NCBI RefSeq assembly: GCF_026586805.1
Contig: NZ_JAPFHA010000007.1
Location: forward strand, 62,001-126,000
DNA length: 64,000 nucleotides
Source: Niveibacterium sp. 24ML
GTDB lineage: Bacteria; Pseudomonadota; Gammaproteobacteria; Burkholderiales; Rhodocyclaceae
Direction: 5' to 3'
The notes beneath the pieces are model-generated. The model worked only from the letters and a program-made list of their open reading frames with translations, ran no database searches and was not told the DNA's origin. This document shows positions 20,552-26,768 of this stretch, piece by piece. The position numbers and the translations under genes were made by a program. Position 1 is the stretch's first letter, and every line of letters begins with the position of its first letter.

Positions 20552-20788
20552 TTAGTGCGAGTGGAACGTGCGGTTGATGACGTCCAACTGCTGTTCGCGG
20601 GTCAGCTTGGTGAAGTTCACCGCATAGCCAGACACGCGGATCGTCAGCTGCGGATAGTTCTCGGGGTTTTCCATTGCGTCGAGCAGCATGTCGCGATTGA
20701 GCACGTTGATGTTCACATGGAAGCCATCGCAGCCAAAGTAGGCGTCAAGCATCCCGACGAGGTTTTGTACTTGTTCGGTCGAAGCCAT
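20552..20788 (-). CDS. Free-standing glycyl-radical domain (GrcA/YfiD-like, pyruvate formate-lyase C-terminus)
   Basis: A 78-aa protein that is almost only the glycyl-radical domain of pyruvate formate-lyase. It has [20 protein letters not shown], then [18 protein letters not shown], then [13 protein letters not shown]. The radical Gly is in RVSGYAV. In E. coli the related but longer YfiD (127 aa) replaces the oxygen-cleaved C-terminus of PflB. This protein is closer to the PflB end itself and lacks most of the YfiD N-terminus. GGAGA sits seven bases before ATG 20788, which argues for a true gene and not a pflB fragment. An FNR-type box lies about 110 bases upstream. No pflB or activase is in the window. 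Confidence 0.85.
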
Positions 20789-20892
20789 GAGTGTCTCCAA
20801 TTCATTGTCGAAGGGTGCTGCGGGTAGCCCTAGAAGCAGCATGGATATTGTGGCTGATGAAATGTCGTTGCGCAATAAGAAATACGATTCCG

Positions 20893-20906
20893 TTGATTGA
20901 AATCAG
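20893..20906 (-). promoter_or_regulatory. FNR/ANR-type box upstream of glycyl-radical gene
   Basis: TTGAT-TGAA-ATCAG matches nine of ten defined positions of TTGAT-N4-ATCAA. A -10-like CACAAT on the minus strand at 20847-20852 would put the box near -61, an activating position. The placement fits anaerobic induction of a glycyl-radical protein. Confidence 0.6.
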
Positions 20907-21186
20907 AAGTGACGACGCAACGCGCCCAGCGCTTACGCTGAAACGTCCGATTGGGCACGCGTTGGGCACGGTCTATGATTTTGAAGCGATGCATGATGCA
21001 AGCAACAACGATGATTTGCGACGCTTGCTACGTATCCTCGTCAAACGGCATGTCGGGTCGCTTGCCTTGGCTTGGTAGCGGCCCTACGGCCTTCTCGGGT
21101 TTGGCGCAAGCGGAACACAGAGCATTGGACTTCGCGCTGCGGGATCAGGGCGCCGCGCAGTCTCAGTTTGATATTGGAGCCGTCAA
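20907..21186. other. Intergenic region before glcD
   Basis: This is the left side of the glcDEF operon. GGAG precedes the glcD ATG by seven bases. No clear promoter or RNA gene is seen. Confidence 0.35.
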
Positions 21187-22692
21187 ATGACTGATTCTTT
21201 GCCTGGTTTTGCGCTGCAGGATCAGGCGTTTGAGGTGGTCGATCGCGTTGCCTTGATCGAGGCGCTCTCACAGATCCTGCGCGAAGGATGCTTGCTGACC
21301 GAGCTTGAAGACTTGCGCCCCTGGGAGTGCGACGGACTTGCCGCGATGCGGGAAACGCCTTCGTTGGTCGCGCTGCCGGAAACCGAGGCGCAAGTGATTG
21401 CGGTCCTCCGCGTTTGCAGCCGCCTGGGGGTGCCCGTGGTGGCGCGGGGGGCAGGCACCAGCCTGTCGGGTGGGGCGATGCCGCATCGCCATGGCGTGCT
21501 CTTGGCCATGGCCAAGTTCCGCCAGATCCTGCGTGTCGACCCCGTTGCGCGGATCGCGGTTGTCCAGCCCGGTGTCCGAAACAAGGCGATCTCGGAGGCG
21601 GCGCTCCAGCACGGCTTGTACTACGCGCCGGATCCGAGCTCGCAGATTGCCTGCACGATAGGCGGCAACGTTGCTGAAAACGCGGGCGGTGTGCACTGCC
21701 TGAAGTACGGCCTGACCGTGCATAACGTCATGCGGGTGCGCGGCATCACGATCGATGGCGAGGTGCTCGAATGCGGCAGCCATGCGCTTGACGGGCCCGG
21801 ATTCGATCTGCTGGCGCTGGTCAATGGTTCAGAGGGCATGCTGCTGGTGATCACCGAAGTGTCGGTGCGTTTGTTGCCCATACCGCAACAGGCTCGCTGC
21901 GTGCTGGCGGCGTTCGGATCGGTGGTGCAGGCGGGGGAGGCGGTTGCTGCGATTATTGCCGAAGGCATCATTCCGGCGGGCCTTGAGATGATGGACCAGC
22001 CTGCTACGGCGGCGGTGGAAGCCTTCGTGCATGCTGGCTATCCGCTCGACGCTGCGGCGATCCTGCTGGTGGAGTGCGATGGCAGCCCGGAGGAAGTTGC
22101 CGAGGAGCTTGCGCGGGTGCAATCCGTTCTTGAGCGCGCAGGGGCCGCAGCGGTACGTGTTTCGCGCAATGAGGAGGAGCGCCTGCGTTTCTGGGCGGGG
22201 CGAAAGGCTGCATTTCCCGCCGCCGGGCGGCTGGCGCCGGACTACTACTGTATGGATGGCACGATTCCGCGCCGGCGTCTGGGTGAAATGCTCACCGCGA
22301 TTGCGGAAATGGAGCGCAAGTACGCGCTCAGGTGCATGAACGTCTTTCATGCCGGTGATGGAAACCTGCATCCGCTCATCTTGTTCGATTCGGCCGCGCC
22401 GGGTGAGCAAGCGCGCGCCGAGGCATTCGGCACTGAAATTCTTGAGCGTTCAGTTGCGCTGGGCGGCTCGATCACCGGTGAGCATGGCGTGGGGGTGGAA
22501 AAAATTGCGCAGATGTGCGTGCAGTTTGGTGACGCTGAGATCCGCATGTTCCATCGCATCAAGGCTGCGTTCGACCGTTCCGGCCTGTTGAACCCCGGCA
22601 AAGCGATTCCGAGTCTGCGTCGCTGTGCAGAGGGCGGACGTATGCACGTGACGGGCGGCCGATTGCCTTACCCGGAACTGGAGCGATTCTGA
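21187..22692 (+). CDS. glcD: Glycolate oxidase subunit GlcD (FAD-binding)
   Basis: The catalytic flavoprotein of the three-part glycolate (or D-lactate) dehydrogenase, which oxidises glycolate to glyoxylate at the membrane. The 501-aa protein has the PCMH-type FAD domain: VVARGAGTSLSGGAMPHRHG near residue 82 and IACTIGGNVAENAGGVHCLK near residue 155. The C-terminal oxidase domain contains MNVFHAGDGNLHPLILFD and GGSITGEHGVGVEK, holding conserved His residues. Its stop overlaps the glcE start (TGATG). Acting on glycolate and not another 2-hydroxyacid is inferred from the full glcDEF set. Confidence 0.93.
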   Translation: MTDSLPGFALQDQAFEVVDRVALIEALSQILREGCLLTELEDLRPWECDGLAAMRETPSLVALPETEAQVIAVLRVCSRLGVPVVARGAGTSLSGGAMPHRHGVLLAMAKFRQILRVDPVARIAVVQPGVRNKAISEAALQHGLYYAPDPSSQIACTIGGNVAENAGGVHCLKYGLTVHNVMRVRGITIDGEVLECGSHALDGPGFDLLALVNGSEGMLLVITEVSVRLLPIPQQARCVLAAFGSVVQAGEAVAAIIAEGIIPAGLEMMDQPATAAVEAFVHAGYPLDAAAILLVECDGSPEEVAEELARVQSVLERAGAAAVRVSRNEEERLRFWAGRKAAFPAAGRLAPDYYCMDGTIPRRRLGEMLTAIAEMERKYALRCMNVFHAGDGNLHPLILFDSAAPGEQARAEAFGTEILERSVALGGSITGEHGVGVEKIAQMCVQFGDAEIRMFHRIKAAFDRSGLLNPGKAIPSLRRCAEGGRMHVTGGRLPYPELERF

Positions 22693-23765
22693 TGGGCGCT
22701 GTGACGGAAGAATTGTTGGCGGCCTGGCAGGCGCAGATTCGTGATGCCGCAGCGCGCGGCGACTGTGTCGAGATTCGTGGCGGCGGTAGCAAGGCGTTCC
22801 TCGGTGAGCCGGCGCGTGGCGCGGTGCTCGACACGCGCGCCTGGCGTGGTGTGGTGTCGTACGAACCAACAGAGTTGGTGATCACGGTGCGTGCGGGTAC
22901 GCCATTGGCGGAAGTCGAGGCGGTGCTGGCCGAGCGGAATCAGATGCTTGCGTTCGAGCCGCCGCACTTTGGCAATGCGACGGTGGGCGGCATGGTGGCG
23001 GCGGGGCTCTCAGGCCCACGGCGCGCCAGCGCGGGCGCAGTGCGTGACCACGTGCTGGGGATCAGTCTCCTTGATGGGCGGGGCGAACTGCTGCGTTTCG
23101 GCGGGCAGGTCATGAAGAACGTGGCCGGCTATGACGTATCGCGCCTGATGTGCGGGGCAATGGGCTGCCTTGGCCTGCTGCTCGATGTATCCCTGAAAGT
23201 ATTGCCGCGTCCGGCGCTTGAGAGGACCGTGCGGTTGTCGATGACGCTGAGCGAGGCCTTGCAGGCGATGAACCGCTGGGGGGGCGAGCCGCTACCGATC
23301 TCGGCGACCTGTTGGGTGGGCGATTCGGTCTATGTCCGGCTCTCGGGGGCTCATGCGGCCGTAGACGCCGCAGTAGCCCGCCTGAAAGGGGATGTGCTCG
23401 ACGATGCTGCGCAAGCGGGTTTCTGGTTGGCGATTCGCGAACAGACCCACCCGTTCTTCTCACGCCATGCGCCGCTGTGGCGATTGTCGGTACCCAGCGT
23501 CGAAGAGCCCATTGGTCTGCCGGGCGAAGTCTTACTCGAATGGGGCGGGGCTTTGCGTTGGGTGCTATGCGAAGACGGCGCGCTCGCGCGCGAGCGCGCC
23601 AGCAAAGAGCATGGCAGCGCCATGCTGTTCCGCGCGCTGCATGGGTCGAGTTTGCAGAGGTTTGATGCCTTGTCGCCCGCGTCCCGTGCCATCCATCAAC
23701 GCTTGAAGCAGGCCTTCGATCCGGCTCGCGTGTTCAATCGCGGCCGCATGTATCCCGACTGGTGA
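22692..23765 (+). CDS. glcE: Glycolate oxidase subunit GlcE (FAD-binding)
   Basis: A 357-aa FAD-binding partner of GlcD. It keeps the nucleotide-binding half (VEIRGGGSKAFLG; ELVITVRAGTPLAEVEAVLA; HFGNATVGGMVAAGLSGPRR; VMKNVAGYDVSRLMCGAMG) but lacks the full C-terminal oxidase domain, as usual for GlcE. It is translationally coupled to glcD by a one-base overlap and is followed after six bases by glcF. Confidence 0.93.
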   Translation: MGAVTEELLAAWQAQIRDAAARGDCVEIRGGGSKAFLGEPARGAVLDTRAWRGVVSYEPTELVITVRAGTPLAEVEAVLAERNQMLAFEPPHFGNATVGGMVAAGLSGPRRASAGAVRDHVLGISLLDGRGELLRFGGQVMKNVAGYDVSRLMCGAMGCLGLLLDVSLKVLPRPALERTVRLSMTLSEALQAMNRWGGEPLPISATCWVGDSVYVRLSGAHAAVDAAVARLKGDVLDDAAQAGFWLAIREQTHPFFSRHAPLWRLSVPSVEEPIGLPGEVLLEWGGALRWVLCEDGALARERASKEHGSAMLFRALHGSSLQRFDALSPASRAIHQRLKQAFDPARVFNRGRMYPDW

Positions 23766-23771
23766 CCCGCC

Positions 23772-25025
23772 ATGCAAACGCAGCTTGCCGATTTTGTTCG
23801 CGATACGCCGGACGGCGCTGAAGCCGAAGCCATCCTGCGCAAGTGCGTGCATTGCGGTTTCTGCACCGCCACCTGCCCGACTTATCAGCTGCTGGGCGAT
23901 GAATTGGATGGTCCGCGTGGGCGCATCTACCTCATCAAGCAAATGCTGGAGGGGGCGGCCGTTTCCGAACGCACGCAATTGCACCTTGATCGTTGCCTGA
24001 GTTGTCGTGCCTGTGAGACGACCTGCCCGTCCGGTGTCGAGTATGGCCGCTTGCTTGATATCGGGCGAAAGTGGGCGGAGGATCTCGCGCCGCCGCGCTC
24101 AGCCCTTGCGCAGGCGAGACGCTGGGCCTTGGCCAACCTCGTTGCGCGTCCGGCACTGTTTGCTGCGGCCTACCTGGTCGGACGGCGGCTTGCACCGATG
24201 CTCCCTGGCAGTTTGGTGGGCAAGATCGTGCCCGCTACACCCCGGGGCCATTGGCCGGCACCGCGCCACGCGCGCAAGTGCATGGTGCTGCGGGGGTGTG
24301 CGCAGCCCGCGATGCTGCCGGACCTGAATGCCGCGGCTGCGCGTCTTCTCGACCGGGTAGGGGTCTCCTTGATTGAGTTACGCAACGACGGCTGTTGCGG
24401 GGCATTGCGTTATCACCTGAACGATCAGGACGGCGGACGAGGCGATGCGGCCCGCTTGCTTAGCGCATGGTTGCCAGTCCTTGAGCGGGGGGAAGTCGAA
24501 GGGATTGTTGTCACCGCCTCGGGCTGCAGCAGTTTTATTGGCGAGTACTCGCACCTGTTCCGCGATGACGCGCCGATGCAAGAAACCGCGGCCAAGGTTG
24601 TGGGTGTTGTGCGTGATGTTTCCGAGCTGATTGCACAGTACAGCAGCGAACTCGCTGCGGTGCTTCGTCCTCCCTCCAGCCAAAGGGCGATGCGCCTGGC
24701 CTTTCAATCCCCATGCAGCCTGCAGCACAGTTTGCGCATCCAGGGTGTGGTCGAGCGTCTGCTGAAGACGGCGGGCTACGAATTGGTGCCGGTTGCTGAC
24801 GCGCATCTTTGCTGTGGATCGGCGGGTGCCTATTCGGTGCTGCAACCCGAAATCTCGGCGCAGCTTCGCGACAACAAGCTCGCGGCACTGACCGCCGCAG
24901 ATCCGGTGGGGATCGCAAGTGCGAATGTCGGCTGTATTGCACACCTGGGCGGCCGGACACGGCTGCCGGTGAGGCACTGGGTGGAATGGCTCGCAGACCT
25001 GCTTCCCGATCATTCGGCAGGCTGA
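23772..25025 (+). CDS. glcF: Glycolate oxidase iron-sulfur subunit GlcF
   Basis: The electron-transfer subunit, 417 aa. Two 4Fe-4S motifs lie in the N-terminus: CVHCGFCTATCP near residue 31 and CLSCRACETTCP near residue 78. Two cysteine-rich CCG domains follow, with DGCCGALRYHL near residue 210 and HLCCGSAGAYSVLQPE near residue 345. These are typical of GlcF and heterodisulfide-reductase-like subunits. It passes electrons from the flavoproteins to the quinone pool. Last gene of the glc set; no glcG or malate synthase follows. Confidence 0.94.
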   Translation: MQTQLADFVRDTPDGAEAEAILRKCVHCGFCTATCPTYQLLGDELDGPRGRIYLIKQMLEGAAVSERTQLHLDRCLSCRACETTCPSGVEYGRLLDIGRKWAEDLAPPRSALAQARRWALANLVARPALFAAAYLVGRRLAPMLPGSLVGKIVPATPRGHWPAPRHARKCMVLRGCAQPAMLPDLNAAAARLLDRVGVSLIELRNDGCCGALRYHLNDQDGGRGDAARLLSAWLPVLERGEVEGIVVTASGCSSFIGEYSHLFRDDAPMQETAAKVVGVVRDVSELIAQYSSELAAVLRPPSSQRAMRLAFQSPCSLQHSLRIQGVVERLLKTAGYELVPVADAHLCCGSAGAYSVLQPEISAQLRDNKLAALTAADPVGIASANVGCIAHLGGRTRLPVRHWVEWLADLLPDHSAG

Positions 25026-25068
25026 TGCTGGGCTCAAGTTGTGCTTTTCCATGCCGTAAAAACGCAGG

Positions 25069-25929
25069 ATGAGTGCAACCTCTACACAGGTACCGGCCGA
25101 CGACGAACCAGAGGCACTTCTGGCGCGCGGCATCAAGCTGCCGCCCCAGCCAGCAGCCTTGCTCGCCCTGCAACGCCTGGCTGAATCGCTCGAGCCAGAC
25201 ATGCGTGAGGTGGCGGAGGTGATCTCGCGTGATCCTGCAATGACTGCGGGCCTTTATCGAATGGCCAGATCCCCACTTTTTGCGCGACGGAATCCACCGC
25301 AAACGGTGGAGCAGGTAGTGTTGATGATGGGTGTGCCGCGTACCTTGGTGCTCGCGCAAGCCATGTGTATGCAAGGCGCAATGCCCGGCAATGCAAAGGT
25401 TCTGGCGCGTTTCTGGGCTCGCTCGACCGCAATTGCGCAATTGGCAATGTTGATTGCCGAACGGCAGCCTGGGGCGCGCCGGATCGCGAGCGAGCAGGCC
25501 TACCTGGCAGGCATGTTCCATGACTGCGGTGTGCCAATCCTGATGCAGCGATTTCCTGCCTACTGCAATCGCACGGGTTTGGACGGGGTGGCGAACAAGT
25601 GGGCCGACATCCAGACCGAGGATCGACTGTTCTCATCAGATCACGCCGTTATCGGTTTCTTGCTCGCCAAGCATTGGCGCCTTCCGGATTTTGTTGCAAA
25701 GGCGGTACGCTATCACCATGAAGGTGGTCGCGCCCTAGGTCGGCCCGTCGATGGCTTGATTGCGGTGCTGCAACTCGCAATGCATCTCTACGCGCTTGAA
25801 ATGAGCATGTCTGAGGGTGAGGCGTGCTTTGATGAAGCCGAGGTCTGTAGCACGCTTGAGATCAGTTCCAATGAGTTGGCAGATCTCAGCGAGCAAGTCC
25901 TTGAAGACTTTCATGACCTTGAACACTAA
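25069..25929 (+). CDS. HDOD domain protein
   Basis: A 286-aa regulatory protein with one HDOD domain (PF08668), a catalytically decayed HD-type fold found in signalling proteins. The opening IKLPPQPAALLALQRLAESL and the run EVISRDPAMTAGLYRMARSP are characteristic. HDCGVPILMQRFP and VRYHHEGGRALGRPVDGLI follow. No receiver or EAL domain is attached. It is followed after 89 bases by a PP2C phosphatase, hinting at a shared signalling role. A second HDOD gene is at 35959-36795. Confidence 0.88.
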   Translation: MSATSTQVPADDEPEALLARGIKLPPQPAALLALQRLAESLEPDMREVAEVISRDPAMTAGLYRMARSPLFARRNPPQTVEQVVLMMGVPRTLVLAQAMCMQGAMPGNAKVLARFWARSTAIAQLAMLIAERQPGARRIASEQAYLAGMFHDCGVPILMQRFPAYCNRTGLDGVANKWADIQTEDRLFSSDHAVIGFLLAKHWRLPDFVAKAVRYHHEGGRALGRPVDGLIAVLQLAMHLYALEMSMSEGEACFDEAEVCSTLEISSNELADLSEQVLEDFHDLEH

Positions 25930-26018
25930 AAGCCCCTAAATAGGGGATTGCAGCACTATGCCATCCTGATGAGCGCAGCTAGAATGTAATTGAGAAAAAC
26001 AACGATTGTGACAAAACT

Positions 26019-26768
26019 GTGGTGTTAACCATTGATACGGTAGTCGCGATGCACCAGGGCGACCGCAAGGAGCAGCAAGACCGCGTGGGTCTGTTCCCTC
26101 ACCCTTCGCGGCCCGGCATGTTGCTTGCGGTGCTTGCCGATGGCATGGGCGGGCACAGCGGTGGCGCCATGGCGGCCGAGCAAGTGCTCTTGAAGGCCAA
26201 GCAGAACTTTGAGGCGTATGCGCCTGGATCTGATTCGCCCGAGGTTTTGCTTCGCGAGATCATCGAAGAAGCCCATGTCGTCATCAAGCTGACACGCTTC
26301 ACCAGCGAGCAGGACCCTCATAGCACTGCATGCGTGCTTTTGATGCAACCCGGCAAGGTACATTGGGCGCATTGCGGTGATTCGCGGATCTACCATTTCC
26401 GCGACGGTGCTGTTGGCTTGCGCAGCAACGATCACTCGTTGGTGGCTGAATTGGTGCGAACTGGTCAGATTTCCGAAGCCGACGCCGAGACCTACCCGCA
26501 TCGCAACCTCTTGCTCTCCTGCCTTGGCGCTGATCGAGAGCCGAAGATCGAAATCTGCAGCGTTGACGGACTCAAGGCCGGTGACGGATTCCTGCTGTGT
26601 TCAGACGGCCTTTGGGGCCACTGCACCGATCAGGAGCTTGCTCAATCGGTTTGCAATGAGCCAGCGCGACAGGCTGCGCGTGGTTTGATTGATACCGCAC
26701 GTTCGCGTGGCAGGGGCACGGGCGACAACATCTCCATGGCGATCATCCGCCTTGTTGAAGCCCCCTGA
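26019..26768 (+). CDS. PP2C-type Ser/Thr protein phosphatase
   Basis: A soluble metal-dependent phosphatase, 249 aa, with all core motifs. These are GDRKEQQDR with a metal-ligand Asp, LADGMGGHSGGAMAAE (metal-binding DG near residue 41), HCGDSRIYHFRDG, FLLCSDGLWGH and TGDNISMAIIRL with the last metal Asp. Members dephosphorylate proteins modified by Hanks-type kinases or control type VI secretion and stress. No partner kinase is in the window. The start is uncertain: GTG 26019 or 26022, or ATG 26049; none has a strong Shine-Dalgarno. Confidence 0.9.
   Translation: MVLTIDTVVAMHQGDRKEQQDRVGLFPHPSRPGMLLAVLADGMGGHSGGAMAAEQVLLKAKQNFEAYAPGSDSPEVLLREIIEEAHVVIKLTRFTSEQDPHSTACVLLMQPGKVHWAHCGDSRIYHFRDGAVGLRSNDHSLVAELVRTGQISEADAETYPHRNLLLSCLGADREPKIEICSVDGLKAGDGFLLCSDGLWGHCTDQELAQSVCNEPARQAARGLIDTARSRGRGTGDNISMAIIRLVEAP

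Follow-up and report, generated by a model that had tools for sequence, protein, structure and literature searches.

A stand-alone glycyl-radical domain in Niveibacterium, a probable replacement part for pyruvate formate-lyase, and similar domains in putative natural two-piece enzymes

The window analyzed here, a 64-kb stretch of the genome of Niveibacterium sp. 24ML, contains a small gene on the minus strand, running from an ATG at 20788 to a stop at 20552, that encodes a 78-residue stand-alone glycyl-radical domain resembling GrcA. The assignment is based on the open reading frame, Pfam, alignment and dN/dS. We suggest that this orphan gene probably supplies an anaerobically induced replacement radical domain for pyruvate formate-lyase (PFL; PflB), comparable to GrcA/YfiD of E. 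coli.

The orphan protein consists of a short N-terminal stretch, the strand HVNINV (beta-10 in E. coli PFL naming), the loop TIRVSGYAV and a C-terminal helix. The radical glycine is Gly54, in RVSGYAV, and RVSGYAVNF is invariant across 43 aligned radical domains. Against Pfam Gly_radical the protein scores 78.6 bits (cut-off 22.2). In alignments it covers residues 683–756 of E. coli PFL (1h16), and its part from residue 22 onward corresponds to residues 70–124 of YfiD (6owr). YfiD is also the best structural match of the AlphaFold model (E 3.8e-5, TM 0.58 by query length), which has a mean pLDDT of 77 and is weaker in the first 30 residues; the next matches are radical domains of other glycyl-radical enzymes, none below E 0.001. 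A TTG start at 20875, which would give 107 residues, was rejected, as conservation over five genomes starts only at the ATG. The ribosome site GGAGA (20798–20794, minus strand) lies within GGAGACA, which is invariant in all five orthologues. An earlier sequence-only reading had described the gene as little more than a PflB-type radical domain with a good ribosome site, shorter than E. coli YfiD. These features are all borne out: the whole protein is 78 residues long and has no equivalent of the approximately 60-residue N-terminal extension of YfiD.

Among the seven genomes of the genus, the orphan occurs in five (G000, which is the window's genome, G120, G007, G151 and G152), all of which have a full-length PflB. 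Over the ten pairs dN/dS is 0 to 0.034 (dN at most 0.028 and zero in three pairs; dS 0.15–1.07), and the four comparisons with the window's genome show 4–5 nonsynonymous versus 22–27 synonymous changes. The gene is under strong purifying selection. It is 77% identical to the PflB tail of its own genome over residues 4–77 and 73–76% identical to the three PflB tails of the genus that were compared. Downstream, all five genomes have a cobalamin adenosyltransferase-like gene, an ftsB-like gene, eno, a small gene and kdsA (names assigned by eye), with a glycerate kinase-like gene inserted in G007. On the other side lies glcD in four genomes (G000, G120, G007 and G151, whose contig breaks off within the gene); in G152, 2.8 kb of other genes are found there instead, and the orphan therefore does not depend on glcDEF.

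Beyond the genus, no stand-alone radical domain was found in any of the eight sampled family members with a fused PflB. In all, none of 15 genomes tested reaches the GrcA2 cut-off. Among the matches listed for 398 Pseudomonadota genomes, no other stand-alone frame is as short as the orphan; the short stand-alone frames are 127–176 residues long and mostly match from profile position 16–19, as YfiD does. Matches were obtained in 1538 phage records, of which the best 30 mainly cover residues 22–75, like the known YfiD-like piece; the one record examined is 2 kb long and contains part of a longer PflB. Plasmids gave 143 records with a match, and two examined from the best 20 both encode full-length PflB.

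The genome to which the window belongs (4.64 Mb, 69 contigs) contains the partners that a replacement part would need. It encodes one full-length PflB on contig C22 (Gly_radical 123.5 bits, PFL-like 718.9 bits), the only PF02901 (PFL-like) enzyme found. There pflB is followed by pflA (TIGR02493 289 bits, cut-off 231.75), a phosphate acyltransferase and acetate kinase in an operon-like row. By score, the phosphate acyltransferase of this row (L004:7732-9126) is a bifunctional enoyl-CoA hydratase/phosphate acetyltransferase (PRK08190, 607 bits). Just two Gly_radical matches were found in the genome, those of PflB and the orphan; NrdD, the one other glycyl-radical enzyme sought, was found as well. 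The sequence-only reading rightly placed the orphan far from any pflB or activase within the window, both being on contig C22 of the same genome. It had proposed looking for pflB, pflA and nrdD and had named the lack of a PFL or activase as evidence against its view. A full-length pflB, pflA and nrdD are all present, together with FNR, and the sequence-checkable findings that would speak against that view are therefore not seen. The orphan and its genome show two features of a GrcA/YfiD system, a complete RVSGYAV radical domain as a separate protein and a full-length PflB with PflA in the same genome. The orphan also resembles the small subunit of a split PFL in being a 78-residue domain cut at the boundary between core and radical domain, but it is not located directly downstream of a tail-less pflB: pflB is full-length and on another contig.

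Upstream of the orphan, conservation and a pattern match define an FNR-like box at 20906–20893 on the minus strand, CTGATTTCAATCAA (TTGATTGAAATCAG on the plus strand). The box, TTGAT-TGAA-ATCAG, has one mismatch to TTGAT-N4-ATCAA and lies 104 bases beyond the ATG, close to the 110 bases given in the sequence-only reading. A near-match to this pattern is in itself weak evidence, because the window contains seven sites with at most one mismatch versus 1.05 expected from shuffles. A whole-genome search of the seven congeneric genomes finds a single copy of TGATTTCAATCAA in each of five, located upstream of the orphan, and none in the two genomes that lack the orphan. The box lies inside a 15-base run that is invariant in all five orthologues, with a pairwise identity of 56–84% in the surrounding upstream DNA. 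Nine bases on from this run is a second footprint, ATTTCTTATTGCG (20871..20883, minus strand), whose 13 bases are likewise invariant in all five and which is probably a promoter or second operator. A 32-base block on the minus strand (20874..20905) resembles DNA upstream of the genome's own pflB (L004) at 24 of 32 positions. None of 500 Markov-1 shuffles reaches 24 (maximum 23), for a length of 32 chosen after the alignment was inspected. The DNA upstream of pflB does not preserve the second half of the FNR box. The common block hints at a common regulator or a common origin. Among four Crp/FNR-type proteins of the genome, one (L211) has CxxCx5C cysteines and an ETVSR helix, as expected for FNR in cysteine spacing and recognition helix, and we take it to be FNR. 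The combination of a conserved upstream box with an FNR in the same genome, as in FNR-regulated genes, suggests that the orphan may be under anaerobic FNR control.

For the proposed role, we infer docking, activation, repair and FNR control as follows. When oxygen falls, FNR would switch on the orphan through the box at 20893–20906. The 78-residue protein would then dock on a PflB that no longer has its own radical domain in place, either because oxygen has cleaved it at the radical glycine or through some other displacement, and PflA would install the radical on Gly54 of the docked orphan. From Gly54 the radical would move to the active-site cysteine pair of PflB, making the old core active again. 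Such a repair is described for E. coli (PMC8683613): PFL that carries the radical is cleaved by oxygen at the glycine, and YfiD, once activated by PFL-AE, takes the place of the missing piece. According to the same study, tPFL(1–695) combined with truncYfiD(61–127) has an apparent kcat of 204 s-1 versus 105 for intact PFL, with approximately six-fold less radical. Removing the N-terminus of YfiD lowers activation on cleaved PFL nearly four-fold; with tPFL(1–695), the truncated form surpasses whole YfiD in activation by 5.4-fold, and every complex, once activated, has normal turnover (PMC8683613). Judged by its sequence, the orphan has what the catalytic role would need, without the YfiD N-terminus. 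It may therefore be a poor repair part unless the local PflB or PflA is adapted to it. The suggestion of the sequence-only reading that the gene may be a spare part for oxygen-damaged PFL remains the best-supported one, given pflB, pflA, purifying selection, the conserved box and FNR.

All seven genomes of the genus have exactly one stand-alone radical domain: five have a fused pflB and the unlinked orphan, and two sister species, G072 (one contig) and G150, have a split pflB and no orphan. In these two the PflB frame ends with SP(T/S)ALGH and a stop, after 678 and 673 residues. The core is followed, across 82 or 24 bases that include a ribosome site, by a 78-residue gene, MATQEQTDKLVGFLDAYFGSEGF...NRTFHSH, and then by pflA, which is 82–83% identical to pflA of the window's genome over 231–232 residues. 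Compared with the orphan, the small gene shows 82% identity in G072 and 85% in G150. Both cores have an intact catalytic CCVS, and dN/dS is approximately 0.08 (core) and 0.01 (small gene), with dS near saturation. No other PFL-type radical domain was found in either genome (completeness ratings 100% for G072 and 94% for G150). The orphan is missing from its usual place, where the adenosyltransferase, eno and kdsA are present with different genes alongside. In G150 (L208) the adenosyltransferase-like gene adjoins a PP2C-like gene (window 26019), and the orphan and glcDEF that lie between them in the window (20552–26768; names by eye) are gone. A sequencing artefact was considered and rejected: the split occurs in two genomes, one a single contig rated 100% complete; in each, a stop codon and a spacer precede a separate ribosome site and ATG, and both halves are under selection.

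The same architecture is found in Clostridia. A profile search of genome contigs yielded at least 80 loci, including two orphans from the window's genus. Three others are split operons, all in MAGs recorded as Clostridia or Clostridiales. In a sample of 391 genomes from the class of one of these MAGs, 21 are above the GrcA3 cut-off. We examined 25 clostridial loci, comprising those 21 (20 search loci and L117) and L085, L096, L196 and L197; 23 are above the GrcA3 cut-off and L196 and L197 are just below. At each of the 25 loci the stand-alone gene is preceded, either immediately or with one small ORF in between, by a PflB core that lacks the radical domain. Of these loci, 22 also have pflA; L176, L177 and L196 show none in the 0.6–1.5 kb of downstream sequence available. 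CCVS is present in 24 cores; the sequence of L197 begins past the motif. In five of the 21 GrcA3 genomes, whose completeness is not stated, the small gene of the split operon is the sole match to the GrcA3 model. Among the matches listed (to about 122 bits) none of the 21 has a second, and a weaker fused PFL is possible in the other 16. Since all 25 stand-alone loci lie in split-PFL operons, GrcA3 is most plausibly the smaller of two subunits that together make up PFL, and this is probably what the NCBIfam 'autonomous cofactor GrcA3' represents in Clostridia.

At least nine of the 25 clostridial operons carry an extra small ORF resembling half a radical domain, located between the core and the radical subunit in L176, L184, L189, L192, L193, L194, L195 and L197 and after the radical subunit in L177. 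In the eight that were aligned it is 63–84 residues long, with a Cys-rich tail and no RVSGYAV. Its first half resembles the radical-domain helix and beta-10 strand (profile-profile probability 93.5%, E 2.3e-7); three of these ORFs were tested, and none matches a Pfam or NCBIfam family above cut-off. The extra ORF is possibly a placeholder, or 'plug', for the radical-domain site. It was not seen in six operons (L178, L179, L180, L186, L187 and L188), in which a like Cys motif, C..GAC..PTL..G.D, is located at the C-terminal tail of the core itself. A net acidic tail of 3–46 residues follows ALG in 24 of the 25 clostridial cores, many with F.GD(L/I), whereas the split cores of the window's genus end with ALGH.

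The core tree covers 131 of 170 rows; sequences truncated at the edge of a locus, near-duplicates and a small number of others were omitted. In this tree, the 21 clostridial split cores that were included form one group with two fused PFLs nested inside, and the split cores of G072 and G150 fall inside their own genus, far from the clostridial group. Split PFL therefore has at least two separate origins. The nested fused PFLs are L198 and L199; given their position, several splits or re-fusions may have occurred in Clostridia. A single clade of G072 and G150 is not rejected by the core tree (p-AU 0.34). In the radical-domain tree the orphan, the split small subunit and the fused tails of the genus fall in one group (94/87, not starred). 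As the genus copies stay together no foreign donor is needed, and gain of the orphan by horizontal transfer was rejected. The best tree joins the split small subunits with the fused tails weakly (67/22), and a single clade of all seven stand-alone copies is likewise not rejected (p-AU 0.44). Termini common to the stand-alone copies, MA(S/T)xEQ at the start in seven of seven and FHSH at the end in six of seven, favour one stand-alone origin of the orphan and the split small subunit, while HVNVN and FVK favour placing the split copies closer to the fused tail. The fused members of the genus agree with two fused outgroups, Cupriavidus and Variovorax, in the linker ALG(S/T)xEER and in the tail FHG(S/N/A)M. 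The fused form is therefore taken as ancestral, with the split arising within the genus, and the same agreement disfavours re-fusion in the window's lineage.

From these comparisons we infer the direction of evolution between spare and subunit. We offer the following history tentatively, at somewhat less than even odds. A repair part may have become permanent: on this view one and the same gene is the orphan in some species and the small subunit in G072 and G150. Ancestrally it would have backed up a fused PflB, and where the radical domain of PflB itself was lost it would have joined the operon and become indispensable as a subunit. The same architecture would have arisen separately in Clostridia, with GrcA3 as the small subunit of a two-piece PFL and, in some operons, a third protein as a half-radical-domain 'plug'.

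We asked whether the orphan could have another function. It might be an alternative working subunit that displaces the intact PflB tail during ordinary anaerobic growth; the enzyme would then consist of two pieces, the only form found in the sister species. However, the intact tail is conserved in all five fused PflBs of the genus, and the estimated KM of E. coli PFL-AE is approximately 100 μM for free YfiD versus 1.4 μM for PFL (PMC8683613), making this function unlikely. We give little credence to a role without a radical, in which the protein would be a plug or regulator that fills PflB when its own tail swings out. The half radical domains without radical glycine in at least nine of the 25 clostridial split operons indicate that radical-free relatives exist, but the orphan retains the whole RVSGYAV loop and the C-terminal helix, at a dN/dS of 0 to 0.034.

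The sequence-only reading had also raised donation of the radical to another glycyl-radical enzyme, for which NrdD would be a candidate as it is present in the genome; PMC8683613 speculates that some GrcA-like proteins may repair other such enzymes. This idea gained nothing from the analysis and appears very improbable: the orphan groups with the PflB tails of its own genus, at the identities given above, and no PF02901 enzyme other than PflB was found. That the gene is a decaying fragment of a lost pflB, the finding that the sequence-only reading had named against itself, has next to no probability. The resemblance to the PflB tail and the 32-base upstream block in common with pflB would fit such an origin, but the few nonsynonymous changes, the frame intact in five of five genomes and the conserved ribosome site and box refute a pseudogene as far as sequence allows. 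The replacement radical domain for PflB thus remains our preferred reading.

What is known of the docking of a separate radical piece on PFL is incomplete and comes from poorly activating E. coli truncations. Natural two-piece PFLs, together with relatives that have a similar optional spare, would make docking testable where the arrangement evidently works. In the excerpts seen of the matches listed from the open-licence literature, no description of a natural split PFL was found. To judge from the clostridial operons, the NCBIfam name 'autonomous glycyl radical cofactor GrcA3' gives a misleading idea of function in Clostridia, where the protein is probably half of a central fermentation enzyme.

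Like E. coli GrcA/YfiD (TIGR04365) and phage T4 Y06I, the orphan is a stand-alone radical domain unlinked to pflB, and with GrcA/YfiD it shares the fold (6owr is the top match) and a genome containing PflB and PflA. It differs in lacking the 60-residue N-terminal extension and in its score of 86.5 bits versus a cut-off of 170, and, unlike YfiD, it begins with NLVGxLDAYFG, in PflB the lead-in to the radical domain. GrcA3 (NF038360) is the best-scoring NCBIfam model at 127 bits and has the same length (78 positions); the orphan is nevertheless below its cut-off of 158, is unlinked and occurs with a fused PflB, whereas the clostridial GrcA3 loci are split operons. GrcA2 (NF008341) is also a short stand-alone radical domain and aligns over residues 23–77, but with 112 bits versus a cut-off of 145, so that the orphan is below all three NCBIfam cut-offs. 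Like the C-terminal domain of PflB (TIGR01255; 1h16), the orphan matches residues 683–756 of E. coli PFL; unlike the PflB tail, it is encoded separately, has a ribosome site and an FNR-like box of its own and ends with FHSH, not FHGSM. In E. coli numbering, taken from alignment and from the E. coli PFL sequence, the natural splits lie at about residue 675–682. The engineered tPFL:truncYfiD, cut at residue 695, has nearly the same layout as the natural enzymes of G072, G150 and Clostridia (Andorfer et al., 2021, PMC8683613). With the natural split at about 675–682 rather than at 695, the linker helix therefore travels with the small piece.
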